This document shows positions 44,778 to 52,037 of a DNA stretch of 64,000 nucleotides, one piece after another. The stretch spans positions 62,001-126,000 of the forward strand of contig NZ_SCUT01000063.1 in the NCBI RefSeq assembly GCF_004297265.1, given 5' to 3'. Within the stretch, counting starts at the first letter, position 1, and the number at the start of each line of letters is the position of its first letter. Position numbers and translations under genes: made by a program. The notes under the pieces are model-generated. The model did no database searches and had not been told where the DNA came from. It was given only the letters and a program-made list of their open reading frames with translations. The stretch is from Reyranella sp. Its GTDB lineage: Bacteria > Pseudomonadota > Alphaproteobacteria > Reyranellales > Reyranellaceae.

Positions 44778-46535
44778 TCAATTCAGCGCCGCACCGCGCG
44801 CCACGTCGACGACGAACACCGGCACGGGCCGGTCGAAGCCCTTCATCATCCGTGAATCCTTCTGGGCCAGAGGGACCCGAGTGCCGATTGCAGCCGCGGC
44901 CACCAGGTCGACGAGGATCTCCGAGTCCGCCGCACTGGAGCAGAGGCGGGAGGCAAGGTTCACGACGTTGCCGATGGCGGTGTAGTTGAGGCGGCCGCCC
45001 GAGCCGATCCGCCCGACCGTCGCGGGCCCCATCGCCAGGCCGATGCCGAAGCCCAGTTCGGGGTGGAGTTTCCGCCATTCCACCAAGAGCTTCTGCACGT
45101 TCGCCTGCATGTCGATCGCCATCTCGGTGGCGCGAAGCTCTGGGTCCGTGCACGGCACCGGCGCGTTGAGCAGCACCATCACGCCGTCGCCGAAGAAGTT
45201 TACCAGTGTCGCCCCGTGCGCGCTGACCACCCGCTCGAGCGCGTCATAGTATTCGCGCAGCATGTCGATGATTTCCTCGGGCTCGGCGTTGGCCGAGAAC
45301 GAGGTGAAGCCGCGGATATCGCAGAACAGCACCGCCACCTCGACCCGCCGCCCGTCGAGGACGCGCTCGTCGCCGGTGCGATCGATCAATTCGGCGATCT
45401 GCGGCGCGAGGAAGCGCTTCAGCCTAGCGATGCGCTCGGAGCGCTCGCGCGAGACTGCCAGCTCTCCCGCCATCTCGTTGAACCGCGTCGCCAGCCGCTC
45501 GAACTCGTCGCTGGTCGGGAGGCTGATCCGGTGATCGAACTGGCCGGCGCCGATACGGGCGACGCCGTCCTCCAGCACGCGGATCGGCTCGACCATGCGC
45601 TGCGACAGCCACGAGGCGAGCGCGGCCGCGATCAGCCCGCCGGCGACCAGGAGGAAGCCGAGACGCCAGAGCGCAGCGTAGATCGGTGCATAGGCCTCGG
45701 CGATCGGCTGCTTGACGACCACCTGCCAGTCCACGCCGGGGACCTGGGCCATGGCCGCGATGACCGTCTTGCCGGTGATGTCCCGGCCGGCCGCCGCCTG
45801 TCCGGGCGCGCGGGCCTGGATCGCAGCGCGCAGAGCCTGGAGCGGTGCTTGCGCAGCCTGGTCGGCGCGCAGCACCAGGCTGATGTCGGGATGGGCCACC
45901 AGGCGCCCGGGCTCGTCGAGGACGAACGCCTCACCCGTGCGCCCAACGCGAATGCCGGAGACGACCTCCCAGATGAACTTGAGGTTGACCTCGGCCACGG
46001 CCACGCCGACGGCGGCACGGTTGCCCGCCACCGCGATGGTCATGAACGGCTCGGAGTCGTTCTGGAACGTCACGGGACCGAACCAGACGCGATCGGCGCG
46101 CGCACCCGTCACCGGGGCGGTCGCGGAGCGGTCCTCGCCGGCCTCGACCCGGTTGAGGCCGATGCGCGACACGAACAGGCGCTCGCGGCCGGTGCCGTCG
46201 ACCAGGGCCAGGCTTTCGACGGCTGGCGCCTGGCGCAGAAGGCGCATCGCGTCGAGCATCCGCCTGTCGCCGGCATTGTCGGTCCACGGCAGCTGCACGG
46301 TCCAACTCAGCTGATCCTGTATGCCCTCGATGAAGTCGTGGATCTTCACAGCGGCCAGGCGGGCTTCGGCGTCGAGAAGCTCGTTCAGCCGGGCGCGCTG
46401 GTCGTGATAGCCGAACCAGGCCTCGCCGGCACCCGCGATCATCAGCGGCGCCACGACGGCCGCGAACAGCGCGCGGAAATATTTCCAGAAGAGCGACCGG
46501 TGCTTCGTAGGCGCCCCGGCCGGCTGGAAGGTCAT
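44778..46535 (-). CDS. Membrane adenylate/guanylate cyclase with periplasmic sensor and HAMP
   Basis: 585 residues. Membrane segment 1 is at about 16-37, a periplasmic Cache-like sensor at about 40-290 (GRTGEAFVLDEPGRLVAHPD is a dCache landmark), membrane segment 2 at about 297-320, HAMP at about 320-370 and a class III cyclase domain from about 395. Metal-binding Asp406 (VLFCDIRGFTSFS) and Asp450 (FFGDGVMVL) are intact, as is GLAMGPATVGRIGS. It should make a cyclic nucleotide in response to a periplasmic signal. The ATG overlaps the stop of the binding-protein gene (ATGA), so a ligand-binding partner is probably part of the signal chain. Nucleotide choice is not certain. Confidence 0.9.
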   Translation of the reverse strand: MTFQPAGAPTKHRSLFWKYFRALFAAVVAPLMIAGAGEAWFGYHDQRARLNELLDAEARLAAVKIHDFIEGIQDQLSWTVQLPWTDNAGDRRMLDAMRLLRQAPAVESLALVDGTGRERLFVSRIGLNRVEAGEDRSATAPVTGARADRVWFGPVTFQNDSEPFMTIAVAGNRAAVGVAVAEVNLKFIWEVVSGIRVGRTGEAFVLDEPGRLVAHPDISLVLRADQAAQAPLQALRAAIQARAPGQAAAGRDITGKTVIAAMAQVPGVDWQVVVKQPIAEAYAPIYAALWRLGFLLVAGGLIAAALASWLSQRMVEPIRVLEDGVARIGAGQFDHRISLPTSDEFERLATRFNEMAGELAVSRERSERIARLKRFLAPQIAELIDRTGDERVLDGRRVEVAVLFCDIRGFTSFSANAEPEEIIDMLREYYDALERVVSAHGATLVNFFGDGVMVLLNAPVPCTDPELRATEMAIDMQANVQKLLVEWRKLHPELGFGIGLAMGPATVGRIGSGGRLNYTAIGNVVNLASRLCSSAADSEILVDLVAAAAIGTRVPLAQKDSRMMKGFDRPVPVFVVDVARGAALN

Positions 46536-47545
46536 TCGATCACCCGATCGGCGCTGCCGAGGATCGAGGGCGGGAAGGAGATGCCGAGATTGTCGGCGGC
46601 CTTCAGATTGATGAACAACTCGACCCGCGTGACCCGCTGCACCGGCAGCTCGGCGGGCTTCTCGCCCTTGAGGATACGGCCGGCGTAAATGCCGGTTTGG
46701 CGATGCGACTGGCTGAAATCGCCGCCGTAGCTCATCAGGCCGCCGGCCAGCGGGAAGTCGCGCGACTGGGTCATCGACGGCACGGCATGACGCACCGAGA
46801 GCGCGGCTAGCTGCGGGCTGCGATAGGCGAAATAAGGATCGGAACTGAAGACCAGCCCGCCCGCCCCGCTGTCGCGCACCGCGGTGAACATGCCGGGAAA
46901 CTCCTGCTCCTGGCTGCCGTACAGCACGACCAGCTCGACGCCGAGCGCATCGGCCGCCGCCTGCAGGTTCTTGAGCTGCGCACCCGAGGTTGGACTCGTC
47001 GGGTTCATTGCAACGGCGAACTTCCCGGTTGCGGGCCGCAGCTCCCGCATGAACTCCAGCCGCTTGCGCGAGACCTCGACGCTGAGGCTCGACACGCCGG
47101 TGAGGTTGCCGCCCGGTCGCGACAGACTCGTAACGACGCCCAGTGCAATAGGATCGCCGCCCATTTCGAAGACGATGGGAATGGTCGAGGTCGCGGCCTT
47201 GGCCGCCAGCGCGACCTCGGCGCCGCCGGCCGCCACGATCACGTTGATGTTCCTCGCCGCCAGTTCCCTCGCTAGCGCCGGCAGGCGGCTGTATTGGCCT
47301 TCTGCCCACTTGTACTCGATGGCGACGTTGCGTCCCTCGATGTAGCCCGCTTCCGCCAGCCCCTGCCGGAAGGCTTCGAGACGGCTGCGGTAACGTTCCT
47401 GCGTCTCGGAACCGAGATAGCCGATGACGGGCATGGACTGGGCCCGCGCGGAGACGGTCCAGCCCGCGACGCCGCCGAGCAGCGCCATCGCGATGCGCCG
47501 GTTCAATCCCGTTCCGCCTTCACCACCAAGGTGCCTGACCCGCAC
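46532..47545 (-). CDS. ABC-type periplasmic substrate-binding protein (PF04392 type), no permease nearby
   Basis: 337 residues from a GTG with GGGGAGA at good spacing; a TTG at 47506 is the alternative. Signal peptide: RRIAMALLGGVAGWTVSARA. Family marks are PVIGYLGSETQERYRSRLEAF, GLAEAGYIEGRNVAIEYKWA and VSSLSVEVSRKRLEFMREL. These proteins resemble TrpX-like tryptophan/tyrosine binders. There is no permease or ATPase gene beside it. Instead it is coupled to a membrane cyclase with a periplasmic sensor, which suggests a receptor role. The ligand is unknown. Confidence 0.88.
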   Translation of the reverse strand: MRVRHLGGEGGTGLNRRIAMALLGGVAGWTVSARAQSMPVIGYLGSETQERYRSRLEAFRQGLAEAGYIEGRNVAIEYKWAEGQYSRLPALARELAARNINVIVAAGGAEVALAAKAATSTIPIVFEMGGDPIALGVVTSLSRPGGNLTGVSSLSVEVSRKRLEFMRELRPATGKFAVAMNPTSPTSGAQLKNLQAAADALGVELVVLYGSQEQEFPGMFTAVRDSGAGGLVFSSDPYFAYRSPQLAALSVRHAVPSMTQSRDFPLAGGLMSYGGDFSQSHRQTGIYAGRILKGEKPAELPVQRVTRVELFINLKAADNLGISFPPSILGSADRVIE

Positions 47546-47679: not shown

Positions 47680-48075
47680 TCAGGCGCCCTCGCGCTCCTC
47701 CCAAGCGTAGTCGTAGAAAACGCGGATGAAGTTGCCGTCGAGGTCCTCGGCGAAGAATTCGTAGAGCTTGGCATCGGGATGCGCCGCCGGTGGACCGGAT
47801 AGCCTCGCGCCGACGACTTGCCATTCGCGATGAAGCTCGTCGATCTCCTCCCGGCCATCGAGGTTCAGCCACAGCAAGATCGGACCACGCACGCCGAGCG
47901 GCGCCCGAAACTGTTCGTTCGACAAGAACATGCGCGTGGCGCCCCGCGAGACGCAAGCGAGGCCGATCCCGTCCGCCGACCAGTCGATGTTGAAGCCCAG
48001 GCGATCGCGATAATAGGCGAGCGCGGTAGCGAGATCCGCGACAGGAACGTCGGGACACATCGCCGGGAACTTCAC
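47680..48075 (-). CDS. Glyoxalase/bleomycin-resistance-fold protein
   Basis: 131 residues, GTG start with GGAGCGC ahead. VOC-fold features are PDVPVADLATALAYYRDRLGFNIDW at the start and AKLYEFFAEDLDGNFIRVFYDY at the end, with a Glu in YEFF and possible ligands in the paired repeats. Family members include glyoxalase, dioxygenases and antibiotic-binding proteins. The start lies 3 bases after the stop of the large membrane-protein gene, so the two are cotranscribed. No substrate can be named. Confidence 0.83.
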   Translation of the reverse strand: MKFPAMCPDVPVADLATALAYYRDRLGFNIDWSADGIGLACVSRGATRMFLSNEQFRAPLGVRGPILLWLNLDGREEIDELHREWQVVGARLSGPPAAHPDAKLYEFFAEDLDGNFIRVFYDYAWEEREGA

Positions 48076-49611: not shown

Positions 49612-49811
49612 GCGGGGGTGGCTCCGAAATCAGGGGAACAAGCACCCCTAATCAATTGATATACATTACAGTTTCCCCAAATACCACTAATAGATCACGG
49701 AGCGCGGGCGCCGGGGCCTTCTTTAGATTCGTTCGTTTCGTTTATTTCGTCTGTTGCGTTTGCTCATCAGTAATCCGGCTTTTTCTCCCGCGTCCTGCTA
49801 AAGGAAAGACG

Positions 49812-52037
49812 ATGAAAGCGGCGCCCCTCCTCAAGGATCTCGTGCTCGTGGGCGGCGGCCATTCGCACGTCCATGTCGTGAAGAGCTTCGGCATGAAGCC
49901 GATGCCGGGTGTCCGGCTCACCCTGATCGGGCGGGACATCGAGACACCCTACTCCGGCATGATCCCGGGCTTCGTGGCCGGCGCCTACTCCTTCGACGAA
50001 TGCCACATCGATCTCGCTCGGCTCTGTGCCTGGACCGGCGCGCGATTGATTCATGCCGAGGCGATCGGACTCGATCGCGCGAACCGGCAGGTGCTGCTGA
50101 AGGATCGGCCGCCGGTCTCCTACGATCTCGTGTCGCTCGACGTCGGCTCCTCGCCCAGCATGGACCAGATTCCCGGCGCGGCCGAGCATGCGACGCCGGT
50201 CAAGCCCATCGCCGAACTCGGCCGCCGCTGGCTGGGCTTCCTCGAAAGGGTGAAGGATTGGCAAGGCGCGTTGCGCATCACGGTGATCGGCGGCGGCGCG
50301 GGCGGCGTCGAGCTGGCATTGGCCATCGACCATCGACTGCGTACCGTCGCGCGCAACGCCGAGGTCTCCGTCACGCTCGCGACCAAGGGCGAGATCCTGT
50401 CGGGGCAGGCGGCGGCCGCGCGGCGGCGCATGCGCGCGATCTTCGAGCGCCGCGGCGTGCGGCTGCTGGAGAACGCCGCCACGACTCGTATCGACGCCGA
50501 TGCGGTGCATCTCGAGTCGGGCGAACGGCTGCCGGTCGACGACGTGTTCGTGGTGACGCAGGCCAGTGCGGCCGCATGGTTCGCCGGGACCGGCCTGCCG
50601 CTCGATGAGCGCGGCTTCTTCGCCGTGGAGCCGACCCTCGCCTCGAAGGGCGATCCACTGGTGTTCGCCGCCGGCGATTGCGCGAGCGTGACCGAACATC
50701 CGCGTCCCAAGGCTGGCGTCTTCGCGGTGCGACACGGTCCGCCACTCGCCGCCAACCTGCGTCGCGCGTTGCTGGGACAGGCGCTGCAGCCCTTCACGCC
50801 GCAGCACCGCTATCTCTCGATCCTGGGCAGCGGTGACGGGCACGCGGTGGCGACGCGCGGCGCGTGGGCCGTCGAAGGGACGTGGGTGTGGCGCTGGAAG
50901 GACCATATCGACCGCAAGTGGATGCGCATGTATCGCGAGCCGCCGGCGGAGCCGATGGACACGGCCGCACGGGCAGCACCGCCCGATCCGGCGCTGGCCG
51001 ATGCCGAAGCGAGACGCCTGCTGACCGACATCGGCATGCGCTGCGGCGGTTGCGGCGCCAAGGTGGGGGCCGGCGTGCTCGATCGCGTGCTGGCGCGCCT
51101 CGGTCCTTCGCCCGCCGCGAACGTCACGATCGGCCTCGATGCGCCCGATGACGCCGCGATGATCGAGGTGCCACCGGGCCAGGCGCTGGTGCAATCGGTC
51201 GATTTCTTCCGCACCTTCATCGACGATCCCTTCGCCTTCGGCGAAATCGCCGCCGTGCATGCGCTGGGCGACGTCTGGGCGATGGGTGCCAGACCGCACA
51301 GCGCGCTCGCGCTGGCGGTCGTGCCGGCGGCGGCCGAGCGGCTGATGGAGGAAGACCTGTTCCAGATGCTGTCGGGCGCGCGACGCATCCTGGACGGTGC
51401 GGGCTGCGCGCTGATCGGCGGCCATTCCGGCGAAGGCCCGGAGACGGCGCTGGGATTCTCGGTGAATGGCCTCGTCGTCACGTCACAAGCCTTGCGCAAG
51501 GGTGGGCTGAAACCGGGCGACAGGCTGGTGCTGACGAAGCCGCTCGGCACCGGTGTGATCTTCGCCGCCGCGATGCGCGGCATGGCGAAGGCAGGCTGGA
51601 TCGAAAGCGCCCTCGTCTCGATGCGCATGCCATCGGGCGATGCTGCACGTGCGTTGGTGGTGGCGGGCGCGCATGCCTGCACCGACGTGACGGGCTTCGG
51701 CCTCGCCGGCCATCTCAGCGAGATGATACGCGCCAGCGGCAACGTCATGGTCGAGTTGCATCTCGACTCGCTGCCGGTGTTGCCGGGAGCCCTCGAACTG
51801 TTCGCGCGAGGCTATGCGAGCTCGTTGCAGCCTGCGAATCTGCGCGCGCGTCATCTCATCGATGGTCTCGATCGCGCGCAGGGTCATGCGAAGATTCCTC
51901 TGCTGTTCGATCCGCAAACCGCGGGAGGATTGCTCGCCGCAGTACCCGCCGGTGCCGAACTCAGCGACCACATGACTCACATCGGCACGATAAAATCACG
52001 CGAAGAATACGTGACAGAGATAAGACTCGTGATCTAG
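49812..52037 (+). CDS. selD: Fusion of NADH-dehydrogenase-like flavoprotein and selenide, water dikinase (SelD)
   Basis: 741 residues. The N-terminal 380 residues are a pyridine-nucleotide-disulfide oxidoreductase domain (LVLVGGGHSHVHVVKSFG, VIGGGAGGVELALAI, VFAAGDCASV). The rest is SelD, with active-site Cys414 and Lys417 (CGGCGAKVG), the ATP-binding LDAPDDAAMI and DVTGFGLAGHLSEM. SelD makes selenophosphate for selenocysteine or 2-selenouridine. The flavoprotein half may supply reduced selenium. The active-site residue is Cys, not selenocysteine. selA, selB and selU are not in the window. The ATG follows AAAGGAAAGACG. Confidence 0.94.
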   Translation: MKAAPLLKDLVLVGGGHSHVHVVKSFGMKPMPGVRLTLIGRDIETPYSGMIPGFVAGAYSFDECHIDLARLCAWTGARLIHAEAIGLDRANRQVLLKDRPPVSYDLVSLDVGSSPSMDQIPGAAEHATPVKPIAELGRRWLGFLERVKDWQGALRITVIGGGAGGVELALAIDHRLRTVARNAEVSVTLATKGEILSGQAAAARRRMRAIFERRGVRLLENAATTRIDADAVHLESGERLPVDDVFVVTQASAAAWFAGTGLPLDERGFFAVEPTLASKGDPLVFAAGDCASVTEHPRPKAGVFAVRHGPPLAANLRRALLGQALQPFTPQHRYLSILGSGDGHAVATRGAWAVEGTWVWRWKDHIDRKWMRMYREPPAEPMDTAARAAPPDPALADAEARRLLTDIGMRCGGCGAKVGAGVLDRVLARLGPSPAANVTIGLDAPDDAAMIEVPPGQALVQSVDFFRTFIDDPFAFGEIAAVHALGDVWAMGARPHSALALAVVPAAAERLMEEDLFQMLSGARRILDGAGCALIGGHSGEGPETALGFSVNGLVVTSQALRKGGLKPGDRLVLTKPLGTGVIFAAAMRGMAKAGWIESALVSMRMPSGDAARALVVAGAHACTDVTGFGLAGHLSEMIRASGNVMVELHLDSLPVLPGALELFARGYASSLQPANLRARHLIDGLDRAQGHAKIPLLFDPQTAGGLLAAVPAGAELSDHMTHIGTIKSREEYVTEIRLVI

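Follow-up and report, generated by a model that had tools for sequence, protein, structure and literature searches.

A solute-binding protein gene conserved beside a dCache class III cyclase: a candidate two-protein receptor in Reyranella and other Alphaproteobacteria

Introduction

To our knowledge, little is known of what most bacterial membrane class III cyclases respond to. A gene pair on the minus strand of a Reyranella contig, within a 64,000-nucleotide stretch of DNA that we refer to as the window, raises the question of whether one such cyclase could take its input from a periplasmic solute-binding protein (SBP) encoded immediately beside it. A reading of the sequence without database searches (the sequence-only reading) had proposed that the ligand-loaded binding protein controls cyclic-nucleotide synthesis by its membrane-bound neighbor.

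SBPs are known to activate chemoreceptors, sensor kinases, diguanylate cyclases and phosphodiesterases, and Ser/Thr kinases (PMC9602780, PMC11113362), and we found no class III (adenylate or guanylate) cyclase among SBP-activated receptors in the open-access literature. In SBP-activated sensor kinases, the sensor is where the SBP acts (PMC9602780, PMC5908839, PMC7927077, PMC10384115). Adjoining SBP and kinase pairs without interaction are also described, namely PA0602, PA4985, and AgtB with AgtS/AruS; the two Pseudomonas aeruginosa kinases encoded beside SBP genes are not activated by those SBPs (PMC11113362). These are single cases, whereas the window pair can be examined for conservation across genomes.

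Results

The gene pair and its surroundings

Mapping of the open reading frames places both genes where the sequence-only reading had them, with the TGA stop codon of the SBP gene and the ATG start codon of the receptor gene sharing an ATGA (Table 1; junction sequence GAATGACC). A domain search of the neighboring genes found no permease or ABC ATPase adjoining the pair, as that reading had also noted; the neighbors are a glyoxalase-fold gene (47680–48075) and an MFS gene, as assigned by Pfam. We found no RNA element, terminator or promoter at the SBP/receptor junction. The closest relatives of the pair are in Reyranella, and because the source genome (6.02 Mb) contains just two PF04392 genes and 26 PF00211 genes, the adjacency is not the by-product of a large expansion. 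Elsewhere in the window, a long open reading frame at 49656–52037 on the plus strand resembles, by eye, an NADH-dehydrogenase-like flavoprotein fused to selenophosphate synthase (SelD).

Table 1. Features of the SBP/receptor locus, in window coordinates.
Feature	Position	Strand	Evidence
PF04392 (ABC_sub_bind) solute-binding protein, 337 aa	46532..47545	-	Pfam 147.8 bits, cut-off 25.9; AF2 model
Export signal, twin-arginine-like NRRIAMALLGG...ARAQ	47438..47506	-	Sequence, by eye; orthologues
ATGA stop/start overlap, SBP/receptor	46532..46535	-	Sequence reading
Receptor cyclase, 585 aa: TM1 - dCache - TM2 - HAMP - class III cyclase	44778..46535	-	Pfam, AF2
TM1, about residues 19-41	46413..46481	-	Hydropathy
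Periplasmic dCache_1 sensor, residues 50-274	45714..46388	-	PF02743 64.3 bits, cut-off 45
TM2, about residues 284-312	45600..45686	-	Hydropathy
HAMP, residues 309-359	45459..45611	-	PF00672 46.1 bits, cut-off 25
Class III cyclase catalytic domain, residues 399-547	44895..45341	-	PF00211 Guanylate_cyc 72.7 bits, cut-off 21.9

The binding protein

Assignment of the upstream protein to PF04392, already made by the sequence-only reading, holds by a wide margin. Its true start is probably the TTG at 47506 rather than the GTG at 47545, since the twin-arginine signal of the orthologues, which start with M-R-R-R-[DE]-F-[IV]-A-L, begins there. The leader read from this TTG is MNRRIAMALLGG...ARAQ; the RR...ARAQ pattern is kept in orthologues as judged by eye, no lipobox cysteine was seen in the signal, and the protein is predicted to be exported to the periplasm via Tat or Sec.

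The AF2 model (pLDDT 87.5) has a two-lobed, closed type I SBP fold, and its top structural matches are 3LKV (TM 0.81/0.91), 3LFT with L-Trp bound, and 6HNI/CD0873. The window SBP therefore has its Pfam family and fold in common with the aromatic amino-acid SBPs TrpX, CD0873 and VC_1101, but TrpX systems include a TrpYZ-type permease and ATPase that the window SBP lacks. We rejected its assignment as a TrpX transporter component both on this lack of an adjoining permease and ATPase and on its NCBIfam TrpX score (108, against a cut-off of 390). CD0873, VC_1101 and SP1069 have two side-chain selectivity positions (PMC6816091). By structure and alignment mapping these correspond to S261 and F277 of the window SBP, a combination that is not a clear match to any of the three aromatic specificities.

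The receptor cyclase

Pfam, AF2 and hydropathy agree that the dCache domain lies between two transmembrane helices and is followed by HAMP, and both domains score above their cut-offs, in line with the Cache-like sensor and HAMP described earlier. In the AF2 model (pLDDT 79) a long TM1 helix, the dCache domain, TM2-HAMP and the cyclase domain can be distinguished, and the cyclase domain is closest to those of CyaB (3R5G, TMt 0.87), Cya2 (2W01, 0.85) and CyaC.

The description of the class III cyclase as intact is correct for the metal-binding aspartates (D406 and D450) and the transition-state residues (N526 and R530), which are invariant in 33 of 33 aligned sequences, but not for the purine-selecting lysine of adenylate-type enzymes, which is replaced by N446 (45198–45200). 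This position is N, S, G, H or Q across the 33 aligned sequences of the SBP-linked direct-cyclase clade, arginine in related aligned cyclases of the response-regulator and GAF types, lysine in the phytochrome-cyclase fusion 6FHT, and glutamate in the guanylyl cyclase 2W01. With the metal and transition-state residues kept and the purine lysine replaced, the cyclase looks catalytically competent, and its substrate is not predicted; the loss of the lysine makes both activity and product less than certain.

Conservation of the adjacency

Relatives were collected by receptor sequence only, so that retrieval carried no bias toward SBPs. A search with the cyclase returned 34 relatives (52–80% identity) from Reyranella, Afipia, Bosea, Chelatococcus, Enhydrobacter, Rhodopseudomonas, Bradyrhizobium, Tardiphaga and unclassified alphaproteobacterial MAGs, and wherever the available sequence extends far enough on the relevant side, a PF04392 gene adjoins the cyclase gene. 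With a dCache-domain profile (A3) we delimited a discrete family, in that the class-wide sample gave strong matches and then nothing down to the 1e-20 threshold; it has 104 members in the Bradyrhizobium family, and in a phylum-wide sample every match falls within Alphaproteobacteria.

We took the flanking DNA of 100 dCache members, mapped the domains, and removed near-duplicates at 97%. The sequence-only reading had made conservation of the adjacency in relatives its own test, and a PF04392 gene is present within 1 kb of the receptor in all 51 of the non-redundant dCache group I loci with a dCache-HAMP-cyclase gene and enough flank, although the sequences compared are related and these counts do not represent independent events; one further direct-cyclase locus is cut by a contig end and lies outside the 51. 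The SBP gene is upstream and co-directional in 43 loci, divergent in six, and downstream in two. Nine further loci are also paired, three of them convergent (L271, L272 and L279, the last from S. fredii). Adjacency is thus kept in all four arrangements (upstream, downstream, divergent and convergent), a pattern not expected from shared transcription alone. Plasmid-borne copies in Methylobacterium, Microvirga and Rhizobium agree with the pairing, and the same architecture is found on pRL11 of R. johnstonii 3841 (RL_RS30325–RL_RS30330). A transporter is not an obligatory part of this conserved linkage: an ABC ATPase-like open reading frame occurs in the flanks of only 4 of 35 loci. No other gene is kept beside the pair across lineages, and shared neighbors are either confined to the Bosea or Afipia groups or scattered.

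Of the 75 genomes in the window's family, 17 carry the receptor gene, and these same 17 carry the SBP gene. One further family genome has an SBP match at the same threshold, a 53% relative encoded by one of five tandem PF04392 genes that lie immediately upstream of a gene for a dCache-HAMP-GAF-histidine kinase, and one of the 17 (G335) has an additional, unlinked 50% SBP relative. In five genomes (G310, G361, G362, G205 and G044) the sole PF04392 gene is the receptor's neighbor; we estimate the chance of this at about 0.001 per genome, with the caveat that the five are not fully independent. With two PF04392 copies in the window genome and exactly one in each of these five, chance adjacency in PF04392-rich genomes is ruled out.

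The linkage follows the sensor domain

The dCache proteins of a sister clade have cyclase or kinase outputs, and some of them come from the same genomes. None of the 38 with resolved output has an SBP neighbor, which rules out PF04392 pairing as a trait of dCache cyclases in general. The SBP label changes 10 times on the dCache tree, compared with a mean of 42 in shuffles, and the output type changes four times, with the proviso that the dCache and SBP trees are quick trees with long branches. Both clades contain both cyclase and kinase outputs, and on these comparisons SBP adjacency goes with the periplasmic sensor domain rather than with the enzyme, the alternative output being a histidine kinase. 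Among histidine-kinase members of the same dCache group, 12 of 39 have no PF04392 neighbor, and for this reason the dCache domain may also work without a PF04392 SBP, or with one encoded elsewhere. Five dCache kinases of this group without a PF04392 neighbor (L143, L155, L156, L161 and L172) have apparent RND-efflux genes directly upstream, of about 420 and 1031 aa and about 0.2–4.7 kb from the receptor.

In 41 core pairs, SBP distances correlate more closely with dCache distances (r 0.88) than with distances of the catalytic domain in that same protein (0.80), and the partial correlations are 0.66 and 0.34 respectively. The SBP partners of ten receptors belong to other PF04392 lineages (for example L028/L030/L031, L029, L032/L133/L134, L075, L076 and L081), from which we infer that the SBP has been replaced by another PF04392 lineage several independent times. 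SBP cleft positions show little or no variation among 27 core orthologues and are different in the replaced SBPs, a pattern that fits a single ligand shared by the core clade and different ones for the receptors with replaced SBPs.

As many as five PF04392 SBP genes lie beside one dCache receptor (L274, 854–8999; L153, 335–9000; L029, 1–5803), and such arrays suggest that several ligands could feed one receptor. A locus from the same genus as the window (L073, 4721–11069) encodes an SBP, a dCache-HAMP-GAF-GAF-histidine kinase, a response regulator, a response-regulator-class III cyclase, and a second PF04392 SBP; it is related to the window pair but of two-component type, and it likewise ends in a class III cyclase. 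L140, L150 and further loci of the Bradyrhizobium family resemble it.

Discussion

We propose that the SBP and the cyclase are one periplasmic receptor split over two polypeptides, through which an extracellular ligand would set a cyclic-nucleotide level, and we place the probability of this at roughly 0.8. The PF04392 protein would be exported to the periplasm and close there on a small ligand; the closed, ligand-loaded form would then dock on the dCache domain of its partner, and docking would shift the TM2-HAMP helices and either raise or lower the activity of the cyclase homodimer. The product would probably be cAMP, or possibly cGMP. Closure and docking are modeled on SBP-activated kinases (PMC9602780, PMC5908839, PMC7927077, PMC10384115). 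What favors the two-protein receptor suggested by the sequence-only reading is comparative evidence: the adjacency in 51 of 51 loci, the SBP replacements, and the lack of SBP neighbors in the sister clade.

An alternative explanation is that the SBP works with an ABC transporter whose genes lie elsewhere, while the cyclase senses a ligand of its own through dCache and the two genes are merely co-regulated. PF04392 does include transporter SBPs such as TrpX, and dCache domains often bind small ligands directly. We nevertheless regard this as unlikely, since 31 of 35 loci have no nearby ABC ATPase-like open reading frame and the other four have none nearer than 3 kb, the neighboring SBP is the only PF04392 gene in five genomes, and the same SBP family accompanies the dCache group when its output is a kinase but is absent from the sister clade. 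Co-regulation is further disfavored because the adjacency persists in loci where the two genes are divergent or convergent and cannot share a transcript.

Two other explanations seem to us more improbable still. The SBP could have lost ligand binding and serve the receptor constitutively as a structural or inhibitory subunit, and SBP-like regulators in which a ligand plays little or no part do exist; against this, the cleft positions mapped from TrpX/CD0873 relatives are those conserved in the core orthologues, their divergence in replaced SBPs is as expected for pockets of different specificity, and the AF2 model matches ligand-bound, closed SBPs, such that we give this little credence. Least probable of all is neutral or selfish co-transfer, in which mobile DNA carries the two genes along together although their products do not cooperate. 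The patchy distribution within the family and the rhizobial plasmid copies do suggest transfer, but retention of adjacency through rearrangement and SBP replacement needs selection for proximity, and no other neighboring gene is kept across lineages.

The proposed split receptor resembles the AioX-AioS, TctC/BctC-type, GltB-GtrS and CuaD-CuaS kinase systems in joining an extracytoplasmic SBP to the sensor domain of a membrane receptor (PMC9602780, PMC5908839, PMC7927077, PMC10384115), and differs from SBP-activated kinases in its class III cyclase output, its PF04392 SBP, and its lack of an adjoining transporter. SBP-regulated c-di-GMP receptors are a class in which an SBP controls a membrane second-messenger enzyme (PMC9602780). 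They are like the proposed pair in that the messenger is a nucleotide, but their enzymes are of the GGDEF/EAL type and unrelated to the PF00211 cyclase of the window. NspS-MbaA is reportedly an example of these receptors. The natriuretic-peptide receptor guanylyl cyclase and the trypanosome receptor adenylate cyclases place an extracellular venus-flytrap module, which has the SBP fold, on a membrane class III cyclase (PMC6027212). In those enzymes the flytrap is fused to the enzyme, whereas the window pair has a separate soluble SBP, presumably acting through dCache.

Taken more broadly, the comparisons make it reasonably probable that the pair belongs to a plug-in architecture, in which a conserved alphaproteobacterial dCache receptor accepts exchangeable PF04392 SBPs, as many as five next to a single receptor, and outputs that can likewise be exchanged and include a direct class III cyclase. 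The exchanged SBPs and outputs allow SBP-dCache recognition to be studied via natural domain swaps, and the linked SBP should help to identify the ligand of each receptor. The R. johnstonii 3841 pair is a ready test system in a genetic model with straightforward genetics. If our interpretation is correct, the direct form would be the first class III nucleotide cyclase gated by an SBP, and a bacterial parallel, built from two proteins, to the flytrap-receptor cyclases of animals and trypanosomes.
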